Below are positions 15,268 to 22,111 of a DNA stretch of 32,386 nt, piece after piece. The notes beneath the pieces are model-generated. The model did not search any database. It was not told the origin of the DNA and worked only from the letters and a program-made list of their open reading frames with translations. Every line of letters begins with the position of its first letter. Within the stretch, counting starts at the first letter, position 1. The translations under genes and the position numbers were made by a program. The DNA is from an uncultured Boseongicola sp. Its GTDB lineage: Bacteria; Pseudomonadota; Alphaproteobacteria; Rhodobacterales; Rhodobacteraceae. The stretch spans positions 1 through 32,386 of the forward strand of contig CAJQNG010000093.1 of assembly GCA_905479635.1 (NCBI GenBank). The letters are read 5' to 3'.

Positions 15268-16128
15268 TCAGATCGCAGTTTTGCGGCTTTCGTCGAGATA
15301 AATCTCGCGCAAACGCATCGCGACCGCCCCCGGTGTGCCGTCCCCAAGCGACGCGCCGTCGATCTCGACTATGGGCATCACGAAAGTCGAGGCCGAGGTG
15401 ATGAACGCTTCGTCGGCATCTTTTGCCTCGTCGATGGTGAACGCGCGTTCTTCGACAACCATCTGCGCTTCTTTGGCAAACCGCAAAACGGCGGCACGGG
15501 TGATGCCGTGCAGGATGTCGTTGGATAGATGCCGGGTGATAATCTTGCCGTCTTTGACGATATAGGCGTTGTTCGAGGTGCCTTCGGTGACGTGACCGTC
15601 CTCGACCATCCACGCATCATCGCACCCGGCTGCCTTGGCCATCATCTTGCCCATCGACGGGTACAAAAGCTGCACGGTTTTGATGTCACGCCGCGCCCAG
15701 CGCTGGTCTTCGATCGAGATGACCTTAAGGCCCTTTTTCGCGGCAGGGCTTTCGGCAATGGATTTGGCTTGGGTGAACAAAACAAGCGTTGACGGGACTT
15801 TTACCGGGTCAGGAAACGCAAAATCGCGGTCAGCATCAGCGCCGCGCGTGACTTGCAGATAGATCATGCCCTCTTGCAAATCGTTGCGCGCCATCAATTC
15901 TCGGTGGATATCCAGAAGTTCGTCCATCGTGACGGGGGCCGCCATATCAAGCTCGTTCAGGGACCGGGTCAGCCGTCGCGCGTGTCCGTCAAAATCCAGA
16001 ATTTTGCCTTCAAGAACACTGGTGACCTCGTAGACCCCATCAGCAAAGAGGAACCCGCGGTCGAATACCGACACTTTGGCCTGATCTTCAGGGACGTAGT
16101 CGCCGTTTACATAAACGATACGGGTCAT
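15268..16128 (-). CDS. dat: D-amino-acid transaminase (class IV PLP aminotransferase)
   Basis: A 286-residue fold-type IV aminotransferase. The N-terminus VYVNGDYVPEDQAKVSVFDRGFLFADGVYEV fits D-amino-acid aminotransferase rather than branched-chain IlvE. The PLP lysine is K150 in RWARRDIKTVQLL; the cofactor segment DGHVTEGTSNNAYIV carries E182. The ending ITSASTFVMPIVEIDG is typical. It would exchange amino groups between D-alanine and 2-oxoglutarate, giving pyruvate and D-glutamate. It follows dgcA by 81 bp in the same direction; the context suggests D-alanine/D-glutamate turnover. A good ribosome site (aggaaa) lies 7 bases upstream. Confidence 0.92.
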   Translation of the reverse strand: MTRIVYVNGDYVPEDQAKVSVFDRGFLFADGVYEVTSVLEGKILDFDGHARRLTRSLNELDMAAPVTMDELLDIHRELMARNDLQEGMIYLQVTRGADADRDFAFPDPVKVPSTLVLFTQAKSIAESPAAKKGLKVISIEDQRWARRDIKTVQLLYPSMGKMMAKAAGCDDAWMVEDGHVTEGTSNNAYIVKDGKIITRHLSNDILHGITRAAVLRFAKEAQMVVEERAFTIDEAKDADEAFITSASTFVMPIVEIDGASLGDGTPGAVAMRLREIYLDESRKTAI

Positions 16129-16209: not shown

Positions 16210-17175
16210 CTAGCCCCAAAGTGCGGCGACAGGCGCGTGCAGTCCGGCCTCGTCATAGGCCAGCGGCGGGTTGCGGTCTTCGGCCAGAAGAAGCGGGCCA
16301 TCAAGATCGACGAAAGCGGCGCCCTGCGCCAGAAGTGTGGCGGGCGCCATGGCAAGCGACGTGCCGACCATGCAGCCGATCATCAGCCCGTATCCCTCGG
16401 CAAGAGCGGCGTCTTTCAGGGCAAGCGCTTCTGTCAGACCGCCAGTCTTGTCGAGTTTGATATTTGCGATGTCATATTTGCCGGCAAGACCAGGCAGCGA
16501 CGCGCGATCATGGCAGCTTTCGTCGGCGCAGACCGGTAGGGGGCGCTCGATCTCGGCGAGCATGTCGTCGGCACCCGCGGGCAGAGGTTGCTCAACCAGC
16601 AGCACGCCAAGGCGGATAAGATGCGGCGCAAGGTCGGCGTAGATGTCGGCCGTCCAGCCCTCGTTGGCATCAACGATGATGTCAGTTTCGGGAGCGCCGC
16701 GGCGGACTGCTTCGAGTCGGGCCATATCGTCGGGCGTGCCGAGTTTGATTTTCAAAAGCGGACGGGTCGAGTGGCGCGCCGCCGACTTTTTCATGTTCTC
16801 AGGCGTATCAAGCGATAGGGTGAAGGCGGTGGTTAACGCCGCCGGAGCGGGCACGCCCACAATGTCCCAGACGCGCTTTCCCGCCTGTTTTGCTTCCAGA
16901 TCCCACATCGCGCAATCGACGGCGTTGCGCGCGGCGCCCGCTGGAAGCGTCTCTTGCAGCGCGGGCCGCGTGATGGTTTCGGGAAGCGCGCGGATTTCGT
17001 CCATCACCGAGGCGAGCGTTTCGCCATAACGCGCATAAGGCACGCATTCGCCACGGCCAGTGACGACGCCATCGCTGACAGTGACAGTCAAAACCTCGGC
17101 GGCATCCCGCGAGCCGCGCGAGATGGTAAACGTCTCGGCCAGCCGGAAGGTTTCGGCCTTAACCTTGATTAACAT
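16210..17175 (-). CDS. dgcA: Dipeptide epimerase family protein (DgcA-like racemase/epimerase)
   Basis: A 321-residue enolase-superfamily protein (MLE/L-Ala-D/L-Glu epimerase branch). Catalytic pattern: K-x-K at 142-144 (LLKIKLG), metal ligands D169 (DANEGW), E195 (VEQPLP) and D218 (CADESCHD), and the second catalytic lysine K240 in DIANIKLDKTGGL. In the described DgcN-DgcA route, DgcA epimerises N-acetyl-D-glutamate to N-acetyl-L-glutamate; other family members epimerise the muropeptide dipeptide. The dgcN gene immediately upstream (51 bp gap) supports the former (inference from context). Confidence 0.88.
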   Translation of the reverse strand: MLIKVKAETFRLAETFTISRGSRDAAEVLTVTVSDGVVTGRGECVPYARYGETLASVMDEIRALPETITRPALQETLPAGAARNAVDCAMWDLEAKQAGKRVWDIVGVPAPAALTTAFTLSLDTPENMKKSAARHSTRPLLKIKLGTPDDMARLEAVRRGAPETDIIVDANEGWTADIYADLAPHLIRLGVLLVEQPLPAGADDMLAEIERPLPVCADESCHDRASLPGLAGKYDIANIKLDKTGGLTEALALKDAALAEGYGLMIGCMVGTSLAMAPATLLAQGAAFVDLDGPLLLAEDRNPPLAYDEAGLHAPVAALWG

Positions 17176-17226
17176 GCGCTGCGCCTTCTTTCTGTCAGGT
17201 CGTGTGTACCCGGGGAAACCGCGTTC

Positions 17227-18228
17227 TTAAAGCGCGCTTAGGGCGTCGACCAGACGACCGGCTCCGTGCCGATAGGGATCCACGGTGGGCAAACCCATGC
17301 GATCTTCGATTTCGGCGCAAACTGCGAAGGCTTCGGCGTCGGAAAGTGCTTTGGTGTTGACCGAAATGCCGGCGACCACACAGGCAGGGTTGGCGATCCG
17401 CGCAAGGGGCAAAGCCATATCGCGCAGCTCTTCGAGCTTTGGCAATGCAAAGTCCGGCAGACCGCGCATGTGGGTGCGGGTCGGCTCGTGGGCAAGGATC
17501 AGCGCGTCGGGCTGTCCGCCGTGGATCAGCGCCATGGTCACACCAGAATAGGACACGTGCCAAAGACTACCCTGCCCTTCGATGTGGTCCCAGTGATCGG
17601 CGTCAGCGTCCGGGGTAAGCCATTCGACAGCTCCCGCCATGAAGTCGGCGACGACGGCATCAAGAGGAATGCCTTTTCCAGTGATCAGGATGCCAGTCTG
17701 GCCGGTAGGGCGAAACGTGGATTTCATCCCGCGCTTCTGCATTTCCGCGTCCATCGCAAGGCCCGTGTACATCTTGCCGACCGAACAATCAGTACCAACG
17801 GCCAGACAGCGCTTGCCGGTGCGATTTGTGCCGTTAGCGATGGGGTAGGCGACCGACGGGATGCGCACGTCGTGAAGCGTGGCACCTGTGCGGGCCGAGG
17901 TGGCCTTCAGCAGGTTCTCATCGCGCAAGAGATTGTGCAGGCCGCTGGCGATATCAAAGCCGATCTCCATTGCTTCGGCCAGCACGTTCAACCACGCCTG
18001 CGAAATCATGCCGCCGCGGTTGGCAACGCCAACAACAAGCGTGCGTGCGCCTTTGTCGAATGCCTCTTGCAATGACATATCGGCAGAGCCAACATCGGCG
18101 TTGCAGCCTTCCATGCGAAACTGCCCGACAACGTTATCGGGATTCCAGTCCTTAATGCCTTGCGCGACTTTGGCGGCAAGATTGTCGTGGGCGTCGCCCA
18201 AGAAGAGAAGATATGGTGTGCGAATCAT
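17227..18228 (-). CDS. dgcN: DUF1611 family protein, DgcN-like N-acetyltransferase for D-glutamate
   Basis: A 333-residue protein of the DUF1611 family. The N-terminal domain (about 1-130: LLFLGDAHDNLAAKVAQGIKDW, RTLVVGVANRGGMISQAW, IASGLHNLL) is followed by a P-loop GTDCSVGKMYT (145-155) and RPTGQTGILITGKGIPLDAVVADFMAGAVEWL. In marine bacteria DgcN acetylates D-glutamate, the first step of a D-glutamate catabolic route completed by DgcA (literature recalled, not checked). It is the first gene of dgcN-dgcA-dat. The 130-bp upstream region holds two dyads, one perfect over 10 bp, likely regulatory. Confidence 0.87.
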   Translation of the reverse strand: MIRTPYLLFLGDAHDNLAAKVAQGIKDWNPDNVVGQFRMEGCNADVGSADMSLQEAFDKGARTLVVGVANRGGMISQAWLNVLAEAMEIGFDIASGLHNLLRDENLLKATSARTGATLHDVRIPSVAYPIANGTNRTGKRCLAVGTDCSVGKMYTGLAMDAEMQKRGMKSTFRPTGQTGILITGKGIPLDAVVADFMAGAVEWLTPDADADHWDHIEGQGSLWHVSYSGVTMALIHGGQPDALILAHEPTRTHMRGLPDFALPKLEELRDMALPLARIANPACVVAGISVNTKALSDAEAFAVCAEIEDRMGLPTVDPYRHGAGRLVDALSAL

Positions 18229-19056: not shown

Positions 19057-20016
19057 ATGTCGTTCCGTCTTCAGCCCGCCGCCCCTGCCCGTCCGAACCG
19101 TTGCCAGCTGTTTGGCCCCGGATCGCGACCTGCGATTTTTGAGAAAATGTCGGCGTCCGATGCGGATGTGATTAACCTTGATCTGGAAGATTCAGTTGCT
19201 CCTTCGGACAAGGACGAGGCGCGCCGCAACATCATCCAAGCGACGCATGATGTGGATTGGGGCACCAAGTATCTGACCGTGCGGATCAATGGGCTGGATA
19301 CGCCTTATTGGTATCGTGATGTAGTTGATTTGCTGGAGAACGCCTCGGATCGGCTAGACCAGATCATGATCCCGAAGGTCGGATGCGCGGCGGATGTTTA
19401 TGCGGTGGACGCTTTGGTGACGGCCGTTGAGAGCGCCAAAGCACGTCGCAAACCGATCAGCCTTGAGGTCATTATTGAGACCGCTGCAGGCATTGCTCAT
19501 GTGGAAGAAATTGCCGCAAGTTCCCCGCGTTTACAGGCAATGAGCCTTGGGGCAGCGGATTTTGCGGCCTCGATGGGGATGCAGACAACGGGTATCGGTG
19601 GCACGCAGGAAAACTACTATATGCACCGCGAGGGCGAAAAATTCTGGTCCGATCCGTGGCACTGGGCGCAAGCCGCAATTGTGGCTGCGTGCCGCACGCA
19701 CGGCGTTCTGCCGGTGGATGGTCCGTTCGGAGATCTCAGGGACGACGAGGGCTATCGCGCACAGGCGCGGAGGTCGGCGACGTTGGGAATGGTCGGCAAA
19801 TGGGCGATCCACCCCAAGCAGGTCGCGATTGCCAACGAGGTGTTTACGCCATCGCACGAGGCCGTGACCGAAGCCCGCGAAATCCTTGCGGCGATGGCAC
19901 AAGCCCAAGCCATAGGCGCAGGCGCTGCGGTTTATAAAGGGCGGCTCGTGGACCTCGCAAGCGTGCGACAGGCCGAGGTGATCGTGCGGCAATCCGAGAT
20001 GATTGTCGCAGGTTAG
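19057..20016 (+). CDS. mcl1: L-malyl-CoA/beta-methylmalyl-CoA lyase
   Basis: A 319-residue CoA-ester lyase of the CitE-like family, very close to Rhodobacter Mcl1 in length and wording (MSFRLQPAAPARPNRCQLFGPGSRP). Substrate and metal residues are visible: R76 (TVRINGLD), E141 (VIIETAAGIAH) and D168 (SLGAADFAASMGMQTTGIGG); LDLEDSVAPSDKDEAR is the other signature. It cleaves beta-methylmalyl-CoA to glyoxylate and propionyl-CoA, and malyl-CoA to glyoxylate and acetyl-CoA, in the ethylmalonyl-CoA pathway. The start MSFRLQP was chosen over an ATG 11 codons earlier. Repeats in the leader may be regulatory. The gene is followed by a structured intergenic segment with a terminator. Confidence 0.95.
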   Translation: MSFRLQPAAPARPNRCQLFGPGSRPAIFEKMSASDADVINLDLEDSVAPSDKDEARRNIIQATHDVDWGTKYLTVRINGLDTPYWYRDVVDLLENASDRLDQIMIPKVGCAADVYAVDALVTAVESAKARRKPISLEVIIETAAGIAHVEEIAASSPRLQAMSLGAADFAASMGMQTTGIGGTQENYYMHREGEKFWSDPWHWAQAAIVAACRTHGVLPVDGPFGDLRDDEGYRAQARRSATLGMVGKWAIHPKQVAIANEVFTPSHEAVTEAREILAAMAQAQAIGAGAAVYKGRLVDLASVRQAEVIVRQSEMIVAG

Positions 20017-20056
20017 GCCTTGCCCGACATTGCGATCGCTTTGAGCGCTTTACACG

Positions 20057-20216
20057 TGCGGGATTCCGAAAGCCGAAACGCTTGCCAGTTTTGGAGTTCT
20101 GGTGCTAGCGTGGGGTTACCTAACCGGGCAGCGGGGTGTCTTCCGGACCCGCCCGACGTCAAGAATGACGCGTGAAATCCCCGCAGAACCGGCGTGCTTT
20201 CAGGCACGCTTTTTCT
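20057..20216 (+). ncRNA. Candidate structured RNA between mcl1 and the HIBADH-family gene
   Basis: The 247-bp gap after mcl1 can fold as a closing stem P1 (20057-20065 with 20176-20185, one bulge) enclosing four hairpins: P2 (20078-20088 with 20099-20111, ACGCT/AGCGT and CCAG/CTGG), P3 (GGTT 20114-20117 with AACC 20122-20125), P4 (GCGGG 20131-20135 with CCCGC 20148-20152, or an alternative using CGGGC/GCCCG), and P5 (CGTCA 20157-20161 with TGACG 20166-20170). The intrinsic terminator follows directly. No known riboswitch signature (TPP, cobalamin, glycine, SAM) was recognised and no strong promoter was found. It could be an mcl1 3' UTR, an independent sRNA, or a leader of the next gene. Paired by eye, without covariation. 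Confidence 0.4.
20192..20214 (+). terminator. Rho-independent terminator downstream of mcl1
   Basis: The perfect 6-bp stem GCGTGC/GCACGC (20192-20197 with 20204-20209) has a 6-nt loop and is followed by five T residues. It would end mcl1 mRNA or the candidate structured RNA, 50 nt before the next gene's ATG. Confidence 0.75.
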
Positions 20217-20263
20217 GAAACGCACCGGCCGTTTGCTCGGTGCTAAAATACGGGAGATCAGAG

Positions 20264-21163
20264 ATGAAAACAGTTGGTGTTGTCGGGCTTGGGGATATGG
20301 GCAGCGGATTGGCGCTGAACCTTATCAAAAATGGTTTCGATGTGGTTGGGATAGACTTGAAGCCCGAGCGAATGGCGGCCTTTGCCGATATGGGCGGGCG
20401 TGCTGGAACGCTGAGCGAGATCGGGCGGGCGTCGGCCGCCGTCTTTGTCATGGTGATGAAGGGCGACGACGCGAAGGACGTGATCTTTGACCCGGATGGG
20501 CTGATGGCCAATATGGCCGAGGGCTCGGCGGTGATTTTGAGCGCGACGGTGAAGCCAAGCGAGGCCCGCGCGATTGGTGCGGCGATGGAAGGGTCAGGCG
20601 TTCATCTAATTGATACACCAGTGTCGGGCGGGTTCCCGGGCGCGCAGGCGGGCACGTTAACCATGATGGCGGCAGCTTCCGGGGATGTGCTGGACGCGTT
20701 TGCGCCGGTGATGGAGGCGGTTTCGGCGAATATCCATCGGGTCGGTGACAAGCCCGGGGATGGGCAGACGGTGAAAGCCTGCTTGCAATCGCTGATCGGG
20801 GCACAATTTTCGGCGACGTTCGAGGCGGCGGCTTTGGCGGCTAAGGCGGGGGTTTCGGGGCAGGTTTTGCTGGACGTGTTTTCGACCTCTTCAGCGGGCT
20901 GTGGTGTGGTGAACAACGCGCTTGAGAAGATCATAGATCGCCAGTTTGAGGGCACCGGAAGCCACATTAATACGATGCACAAGGACCTTACAATCTCGAT
21001 GGGATTGGGCGAGGAACTTGGTGTGCCGCTTCATACGGCGGGGTCGGCGATGCAGATATTTCATGCAGGGCGGACGAAGTATCCAAACGGGGACAACTGG
21101 GTATGCACGCGGGTGATTGAGGAGATCGTCGGCGCGGAATTGCACCGTGATCCGAATGTGTGA
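20264..21163 (+). CDS. NAD(P)-dependent oxidoreductase, 3-hydroxyisobutyrate dehydrogenase family
   Basis: A 299-residue beta-hydroxyacid dehydrogenase. The Rossmann motif GLGDMGSGLA is at residues 8-17, the substrate-site segment DTPVSGGFPGAQAGTLTMM at about 117-135, and the catalytic lysine K171 in GDGQTVKACLQSL (the usual NN after this lysine is not present). The family includes L-threonate, tartronate semialdehyde and 3-hydroxyisobutyrate dehydrogenases. Pairing with a hydroxypyruvate-isomerase-like gene downstream resembles four-carbon sugar acid catabolism (LtnD/OtnI type), but the matching kinase and aldolase are not in view, so the substrate stays open. The start MKTVGVVGLG was chosen for its ribosome site (gggaga). 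Confidence 0.88.
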   Translation: MKTVGVVGLGDMGSGLALNLIKNGFDVVGIDLKPERMAAFADMGGRAGTLSEIGRASAAVFVMVMKGDDAKDVIFDPDGLMANMAEGSAVILSATVKPSEARAIGAAMEGSGVHLIDTPVSGGFPGAQAGTLTMMAAASGDVLDAFAPVMEAVSANIHRVGDKPGDGQTVKACLQSLIGAQFSATFEAAALAAKAGVSGQVLLDVFSTSSAGCGVVNNALEKIIDRQFEGTGSHINTMHKDLTISMGLGEELGVPLHTAGSAMQIFHAGRTKYPNGDNWVCTRVIEEIVGAELHRDPNV

Positions 21164-21247: not shown

Positions 21248-22111
21248 ATGAAACTTGGTGTTATCTGCGACGGGATTAGTCGGGATCTGGGTCATACCGT
21301 TGATGTGATGGATGAATTTGGGTTGGAATATGCAGAGCTGCAGTTTGTCGGCAGACATGAGGTGGGGGATCATTCGCCCGCCGAGATCGCTGGGATCGAT
21401 GCGCTCTTACGGGATCGGGGAAAGCCAGTGTCGTGTCTTTCGCGGCATGTGTTTGCGGGGATGACGTCGGCCAACCGGCCGGGTGATGACCTTCATACGA
21501 CCCATATGGATGCGCTGAAGCGGGTGATCGATATGGCGCATGTGGTGGGGTCCCCGTTGGTACGGATCATGACGCAGAAGAAGGAGCAGATCCTTTGGGG
21601 CAGTCATGGTGCTGAAAAGTGGAACGTCGCCCATGGAGCATGGGACACGATGGCGCCGATGATTGCGCCTGCCGTTGAACTCGCGCGCGCCGAGGGCGTG
21701 GTTCTGGTGGTCGAAACCGGGAATGGGACGATGGTCAATTCCAACTATACGGCGCGGCGGCTGATCGACGAATTGGATGCCAAGGACGCTTTGCAGGTGC
21801 TTTGGGATCCGGCGAACAATTGCTGGTGTCATGAGCGGGCCTATCCCGAGGGCTACGACGCGGTGCGCGGTGGCTATCTGGGGCATGTGCATATCAAGGA
21901 TGTGAAGGTGGATACACCGCGCGCGACCCTGGAGATACGACCCATGGGCGAGGGGCAGTTGGGGCCTTTGTTTGGCGATATTGCCGAAGCCTTAAAAGCC
22001 GATGGCTATGACGGGGTGGTGTCGTTCGAGAGCGTTTACCATCCAGGAGACGGGGACTTCGAGGCCGGGTTCCGTCAGAATATCGGGGCGTTCAAGGCGC
22101 TGTTTGGCTGA
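21248..22111 (+). CDS. Sugar phosphate isomerase/epimerase (hydroxypyruvate isomerase-like TIM barrel)
   Basis: A 287-residue AP-endonuclease-2-type TIM barrel. The metal-site pattern is visible: E in VVLVVETGNGTMVN, D in VLWDPANNCWCHE, H in YLGHVHIKDVK, and E in GVVSFESVYHPGDGDFEAGF. The N-terminus MKLGVICDGISRDLGHTVDVMDEFGLEYAELQFVGRHE is typical of sugar isomerase/epimerase members. It follows the HIBADH-family gene by 84 bp and probably shares its transcript; the two may act on consecutive steps of an acidic sugar. The exact reaction cannot be assigned. Confidence 0.88.
   Translation: MKLGVICDGISRDLGHTVDVMDEFGLEYAELQFVGRHEVGDHSPAEIAGIDALLRDRGKPVSCLSRHVFAGMTSANRPGDDLHTTHMDALKRVIDMAHVVGSPLVRIMTQKKEQILWGSHGAEKWNVAHGAWDTMAPMIAPAVELARAEGVVLVVETGNGTMVNSNYTARRLIDELDAKDALQVLWDPANNCWCHERAYPEGYDAVRGGYLGHVHIKDVKVDTPRATLEIRPMGEGQLGPLFGDIAEALKADGYDGVVSFESVYHPGDGDFEAGFRQNIGAFKALFG

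Follow-up and report, generated by a model that had tools for sequence, protein, structure and literature searches.

In the 32,386-nt stretch of DNA analysed here (the window), a conserved structured element of about 62 nt (20123-20184) lies between a lyase gene and a dehydrogenase gene. Its fold has helix P1 (GGGC/GCCC), the small hairpin P2 (GUC/GAC), a third hairpin, P3, that is variable, and a pseudoknot formed by CGGGG and CCCCG. The features of this region and of the two genes downstream are as follows.

20082..20111, + strand: promoter-like site (-35 TTGCCA 20082-20087, 18-nt spacer, -10 TAGCGT 20106-20111)
20123..20184, + strand: structured element, 62-nt covariance model match (84.1 bits, E 1.5e-16)
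20125-20129 with 20151-20155, + strand: helix P1, three of five pairs varying on both sides
20138..20148, + strand: short hairpin P2, GUC 20138-20140 with GAC 20146-20148, loop UUCCG
20156..20171, + strand: hairpin P3, 20156-20160 with 20167-20171, variable in sequence and length
20132..20183, + strand: pseudoknot, CGGGG 20132-20136 with CCCCG 20179-20183
20174..20178, + strand: conserved unpaired GAAAU/GAAAC (alignment consensus), 5' of the pseudoknot 3' strand
20191..20214, + strand: intrinsic terminator in the gap between element and gene, GC stem then U run
20250..20256, + strand: Shine-Dalgarno-like ACGGGAG, with a possible alternative pairing to the pseudoknot 3' strand
20264..21163, + strand: beta-hydroxyacid dehydrogenase (LtnD/GarR/HIBADH family), under the cut-off of every NCBIfam model matched
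21248..22111, + strand: second gene, xylose isomerase-like TIM barrel protein (PF01261)

Among NCBIfam models the dehydrogenase matches L-threonate dehydrogenase best (196 vs. a cut-off of 350), and the solved proteins closest to it in sequence carry the names of 3-hydroxyisobutyrate, 2-hydroxymethylglutarate, and tartronate semialdehyde enzymes. For the TIM-barrel protein, neither an NCBIfam match nor a solved relative (E up to 1e-5) was found. PMC4809877 reports a 178-nt antisense RNA, cis76, in Ruegeria pomeroyi at SPO3097, called there a 3-hydroxyisobutyrate dehydrogenase. On the upstream side, the product of 19057-20016 is by its sequence a CitE-like lyase; its identity as malyl-CoA lyase (mcl1), assigned in an earlier reading of the DNA from its letters (the sequence-only reading), is not established because with none of the four NCBIfam models that it matched does the gene reach the cut-off (RipC, the best, gives 189 of 375 bits). 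Further genes on this side (16210-18228, - strand) encode a DgcN/DgcA pair (N-acetyltransferase and N-acetyl-D-Glu racemase) above the curated cut-offs, beside a gene (15268-16128) that is aminotransferase-like by eye.

The sequence-only reading had proposed a structured RNA spanning 20057-20216, with a closing stem around four hairpins. A structured RNA is indeed present between the lyase and dehydrogenase genes, but it had been placed wrongly, the conserved part being confined to 20123-20184. The stems that it named all occur in the sequence of 20057-20216, yet only P3 and the terminator stand, while all others fall. Of the closing stem, the 5' arm (TGCGGGATT, 20057-20065) is upstream of the promoter-like site, and the 3' arm overlaps with the 3' strand of the pseudoknot. 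The ACGCT/AGCGT and CCAG/CTGG stems sit within 20078-20111, in the promoter-like site, and GCGGG/CCCGC as drawn clashes with P1 and the pseudoknot, which both covary. When 195 relatives were searched at the DNA level, seven genomes matched, the window's own among them; in the other six the match was confined to 20102-20194, so conservation does not extend to the closing stem's 5' arm.

Folding energy no better than that of shuffled sequence, one of the outcomes named in the sequence-only reading as counting against its structured RNA, is what the analysis gave. The difference was not significant on any of three intervals, namely 20057-20216 (z = -1.56, 10 of 200 shuffles as good), the leader plus terminator (z = -1.24, 23 of 200), and the 62-nt core (z = +0.49, 140 of 200). 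Pseudoknots are outside the model of the folding programs used. The element goes beyond chance by its covariation and its gene association, not by energy alone.

The covariance model was built from eight sequences, that of the window among them; the element is the model's sole match within the window's genome. All 89 loci submitted to the model matched it, and these were reduced to 77 by dropping 10 duplicate copies of the same DNA (one cut at a contig end) and two with element and 100-nt flanks identical to another locus; 58 of the 77 are named records. Covariation was assessed on 74 distinct aligned rows, weighted to an effective 37.8 in the column-pair test. Across P1, P2, and P3, 95.0% of cells are paired and nine of 13 pairs show changes on both sides, with none of 500 shuffles reaching the observed covariation and slid versions of the helices 27-40% paired; since the model used for aligning already held the three helices, these counts are tilted towards them. 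The pseudoknot was absent from that model. Among 1770 ranked column pairs, the top 15 hold eight proposed pairs, the P1 extension 9-30, and six that are neither, so relatedness contributes to these scores.

Support differs between the parts of the fold. In P1, column pair 7-32 ranks 3 and the extension 9-30 ranks 4; the latter (20130 with 20150) is paired in some relatives, its types in the 74 rows being A.C (n = 64), C-G (n = 4), G-C (n = 2), A-U (n = 2), U-A (n = 1), and U.C (n = 1). P2 is paired in 100% of cells, but covariation hardly tests it and its support is thin because it is nearly invariant, with one pair changing both sides in one row and two pairs invariant. P3, drawn as CGTCA/TGACG in the sequence-only reading, is a real hairpin: both sides change at all five pairs, four of which rank 1, 2, 7, and 8, and 89.3% of cells are paired. 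At the outermost pair (20156/20171) the window has A.C, and 28 of the 74 rows are unpaired there. For the pseudoknot, all five pairs form in 58 of 74 rows vs. a mean of 24.4 and a maximum of 37 in 2000 permutations of the 3' strands. Its outer pair occurs as C-G (n = 35), G-C (n = 22), and U-A (n = 2). Of the five pairs, the two outermost stand at ranks 5 and 12, and the inner three are unremarkable. One of the first four pairs fails in 13 of the 74 rows in this register, and several of these rows would pair one base off (by eye). An alternative register (columns 13-16 with 88-91) had zero both-side changes and was replaced by columns 13-16 with 89-92 plus 10/11-93. Different pair types recur across different genera (by eye), though kinship inflates the covariation numbers. 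The fold is conserved, with compensatory changes in P1, P3, and the pseudoknot across the 74 distinct sequences, and the covariation in relatives on which the sequence-only reading had made its structured RNA depend was found in these three parts.

The eight-sequence model detected the element in 27 of the 394 family genomes searched. With a refined model it turned up in 15 of 292 genomes at the level of the order, and at that of the class the window's genome was the single hit among 385. When 84,980 species, each represented by one genome, were scanned with an exact pattern, 61 records came up, and all of them match the model. They belong to Rhodobacterales, Rhizobiaceae, Roseibium, and Pseudovibrio, with record titles including Boseongicola, Ruegeria, Roseobacter, Litoreibacter, Planktomarina, Silicimonas, Jannaschia, and Ahrensia; viral contigs scanned with the pattern gave no match. 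Strict filters in the model searches, and the variants that an exact pattern passes over, make these counts lower bounds. Since the pattern fixed GGTGTCT, GGAC, and GAAANCC, the invariance of these letters is partly ascertainment. Two genomes already bearing one element carry a second copy, L056:1501-1558 (G280) and L128 (G609). Downstream of the former, the dehydrogenase seems truncated and diverged (135 aligned residues, 46% identity), and the TIM-barrel gene aligns over its full length.

The dehydrogenase lies directly downstream of the element in all 75 loci with at least 150 nt of downstream DNA; the remaining two of the 77 (L102 and L072) are short of it, and L072 shows the gene's first codons. 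Further loci beyond the 77 behave alike (11 of 11). The TIM-barrel gene comes next after the dehydrogenase in 58 of 62 loci with room. As far as position goes, these counts lend good support to the second suggestion of the sequence-only reading, a leader controlling the dehydrogenase and isomerase genes. At E <= 1e-90, the dehydrogenase is found in 52 of the 394 family genomes, among them all 27 with the element, both counts apparently coming from the same draw. The other 25 of the 52 have no detected element, and the element is therefore dispensable, though the strict filters of this search lose weak matches. A full-model search of 17 element-less loci, comprising 15 of these 25 (one with 47 nt upstream) and two same-genus loci (one cut at the gene), gave a best score of 13.9 bits.

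Some of the element-less orthologues stand behind genes that are below curated cut-offs, either a 2-dehydro-3-deoxygluconokinase-like gene (L139 and L147) or a NanR-like GntR gene (L135 and L136). A NanR-like GntR gene also lies directly upstream of the element in five of the 58 named loci (L065, L074, L100, L115, and L116), two from Rhizobiaceae and three from Roseibium/Labrenzia, which makes a reading in which RNA and GntR protein replace each other weak and not clean. These five loci, being close behind the GntR gene and without a strict terminator, may be intercistronic and act on translation. Two other element-less orthologues (L150:1385-1495 and L019:1400-1500) share a different conserved leader (CTCGGGCANGGCGCCTGG...GGAAAGCCGAA) that is 74% identical between them. 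Rfam gave nothing for it with E up to 5. Among 198 family genomes it was found in these two only, and it is possibly a second leader RNA.

Neighbouring genes in the 58 named loci, with each cluster named from one representative, include mannonate dehydratase (n = 7) and glucuronate isomerase (n = 3), both of which pass cut-offs, and a gluconate 5-dehydrogenase-like SDR (n = 7) that passes the general SDR model only. A sugar-acid dehydratase-like enolase (n = 7), an idonate dehydrogenase-like protein (n = 5), and a sulfatase-like protein (n = 4) are below cut-offs. No sugar-acid neighbours were identified in the window itself. These neighbours, present in a minority of the named loci, point to sugar acids, and we weakly infer that the substrate of the dehydrogenase/TIM-barrel pair may be a sugar acid or related compound.

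Upstream of the element, a TTG-type -35 plus a -10 ending 9-14 nt 5' of the element occurs in 40 of the 77 loci vs. 2.8 expected from mononucleotide shuffles, in a test framed after the sequences had been viewed. A general promoter consensus scan did not list the window site at 20082-20111. Because such a site precedes the element in 40 loci, the RNA probably begins a few bases before P1, and for the window we infer a transcription start near 20118. The lyase gene is upstream in only one of the 77 loci, that of the window, and 74 of the 77 have at least 1300 nt of upstream DNA.

The intrinsic terminator that the sequence-only reading saw directly after its structure is there, at 20191-20214. 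A scan of 2.7 kb found four such sites vs. 2.6 expected, so the window terminator rests on its constant place after the element: strict terminators are present in 16 of 75 leaders vs. 1.15 expected, and all 16 start 4-7 nt after the element. The other 59 leaders are without one. The mean complementarity between the pseudoknot 3' strand and the Shine-Dalgarno sequence over 75 loci exceeds that in 200 of 200 permutations, a result confounded by relatedness and including a few loci (e.g. L083, L080, and L082) where the start codon was chosen too far downstream, lowering scores there. In truncated-leader folds of the 16 strict-terminator loci, a CCGG before P1 pairs with a CCGG at the terminator base in some loci and not in others. 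This candidate antiterminator was not relied on, as the alternative pairings differ among the 16 loci. The two candidate expression platforms imply opposite signs, with release of the Shine-Dalgarno sequence turning the genes on and freeing of the terminator base from CCGG turning them off.

Comparison with known RNAs gave no assignment. No Rfam 15 family matched in the window at gathering score, nor in 19900-20400 with E allowed up to 10. In 20 loci searched with E up to 2, three matches were obtained, all of them outside the element. For 6S RNA, which the sequence-only reading had brought up, the covariance model (RF00013) found nothing in 19900-20400 at E up to 10. Elsewhere in the window's genome, which is 71% complete, it likewise found nothing, whereas five of 14 control genomes gave a match; the sensitivity of the model in this genome is therefore unproven. 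With no Rfam match and an element that goes with one gene, 6S RNA was rejected. In the open PubMed Central literature, a description of the motif was not found among the matches listed, and supplement-only motifs would be missed by such a search.

The nearest parallels are found among leader RNAs. According to PMC2864571 and PMC7367207, the SAM/SAH riboswitch (RF01727) is a pseudoknotted leader of a metabolic gene in Rhodobacterales, and in these respects the element resembles it, as well as other H-type pseudoknot riboswitches. In contrast to the SAM/SAH riboswitch, the element has no Rfam match, precedes a dehydrogenase gene rather than metK, and has the 3' strands of P1 and the pseudoknot separated by the variable hairpin P3. 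Orphan candidates described with a similar placement include ldh2 and icd-II, which precede a dehydrogenase gene, and idnO, which precedes a gluconate 5-dehydrogenase gene. These descriptions, rather than sequence, set the element apart from them, with ldh2 placed in Negativicutes, idnO mostly in Streptococcus and Erysipelotrichaceae, and icd-II traced from a beta-proteobacterium. HRC-8-4 and uORFC-8-2 are motifs of the same order, Rhodobacterales, but the places described for them, chiefly the gap from ccoNOQP to ccoGHIS and the region before cysS, are other than this dehydrogenase. The kind of RNA is known, and judged by these comparisons the element family appears to be new.

We consider the element to be probably a cis-acting regulatory RNA, the leader of the dehydrogenase/TIM-barrel pair, and most likely a previously undescribed riboswitch class. 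It has a conserved, covarying fold and, as would be expected of a riboswitch, a place before a metabolic gene, in all 75 loci with room and with transcription of the leader predicted. The association with a single gene family also fits autogenous control by a protein, with the dehydrogenase or another protein binding its own leader and repressing or attenuating expression, as ribosomal proteins bind and control their own leaders. This is the main rival and is unlikely rather than far-fetched: the element has been seen with one gene family only (75 of 75 loci, 27 of 27 genomes) and is present in three loci without the TIM-barrel gene next (L062, L077, and L070), but the dehydrogenase has no RNA-binding domain among its Pfam matches at E up to 0.001, and conserved unpaired letters combined with a pseudoknot are more typical of small-molecule pockets. 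A cis-acting leader might instead govern termination or translation by its folding, with neither ligand nor protein (e.g. in response to temperature or ions), or be the target of an RNA chaperone or sRNA. The nearby terminator and Shine-Dalgarno sequence fit this, but we regard it as improbable, since it would require neither particular conserved letters nor a tie to a single metabolic gene.

The remaining alternatives concern other transcripts and a translated product. The promoter-like site and the terminator flanking the element in the window would suit a terminated trans-acting sRNA of about 100 nt, which is very improbable given that the dehydrogenase is next in every locus with room and that most leaders (59 of 75) lack a strict terminator. 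A leader peptide acting as an attenuator could start at the GTG in GGTGTCT, from which a frame of about 10 codons is open in the window. Across the 71 GTGTCT rows, 41 have no stop inside the element, codons 3, 5, and 6 change amino acid, and codon 4 is GGA in all 71 with a constant third base, although GGAC was fixed by the scan pattern; codon 2 is uninformative because the search string fixed it. On this pattern of stops and codon changes the leader peptide was rejected, and we give it hardly any credence. An origin in the mcl1 transcript, as its 3' UTR or as an sRNA processed from it, had been suggested in the sequence-only reading and agrees with the position of the element after the lyase gene in the window. 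Synteny contradicts it, as that gene is upstream in this one locus of 77, and the promoter-like site intervenes, as it does directly before the element in 40 loci; this origin was rejected and has next to no chance of being correct.

If the element, in a transcript predicted to start near 20118, is a riboswitch, its P1/pseudoknot fold would be stabilised by a small molecule on which the enzymes act, perhaps a sugar acid or a beta-hydroxyacid related to one. The stabilised fold may then alter termination at 20191-20214 or access to the Shine-Dalgarno sequence, which could pair with the pseudoknot 3' strand, and at loci without a terminator it would act on translation alone. As the two platforms give opposite signs, the effect of the ligand on the genes could be on or off. 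To our knowledge, sugar acids are not among the known riboswitch ligands.

More specifically, and with somewhat less than even confidence, we propose a new riboswitch class (P1-P2-P3 plus pseudoknot) that may sense a sugar acid or beta-hydroxyacid of the hexuronate/aldonate pathways in marine alphaproteobacteria, and that in some lineages might take the role which GntR-type proteins seem to have for element-less orthologues and elsewhere work alongside such a protein. If this is true, the ligand would reveal the substrate of the dehydrogenase/TIM-barrel pair and would help to assign a function to two proteins of which one is below every matched NCBIfam cut-off and the other is without a match. 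A riboswitch would also constitute a new class, for which the 61 records of the species-level genome collection are starting material. The gene pair is accompanied in some loci by the RNA, in some by a GntR-like gene, and in others by both, which would allow control by RNA and control by protein to be compared within a single pathway.
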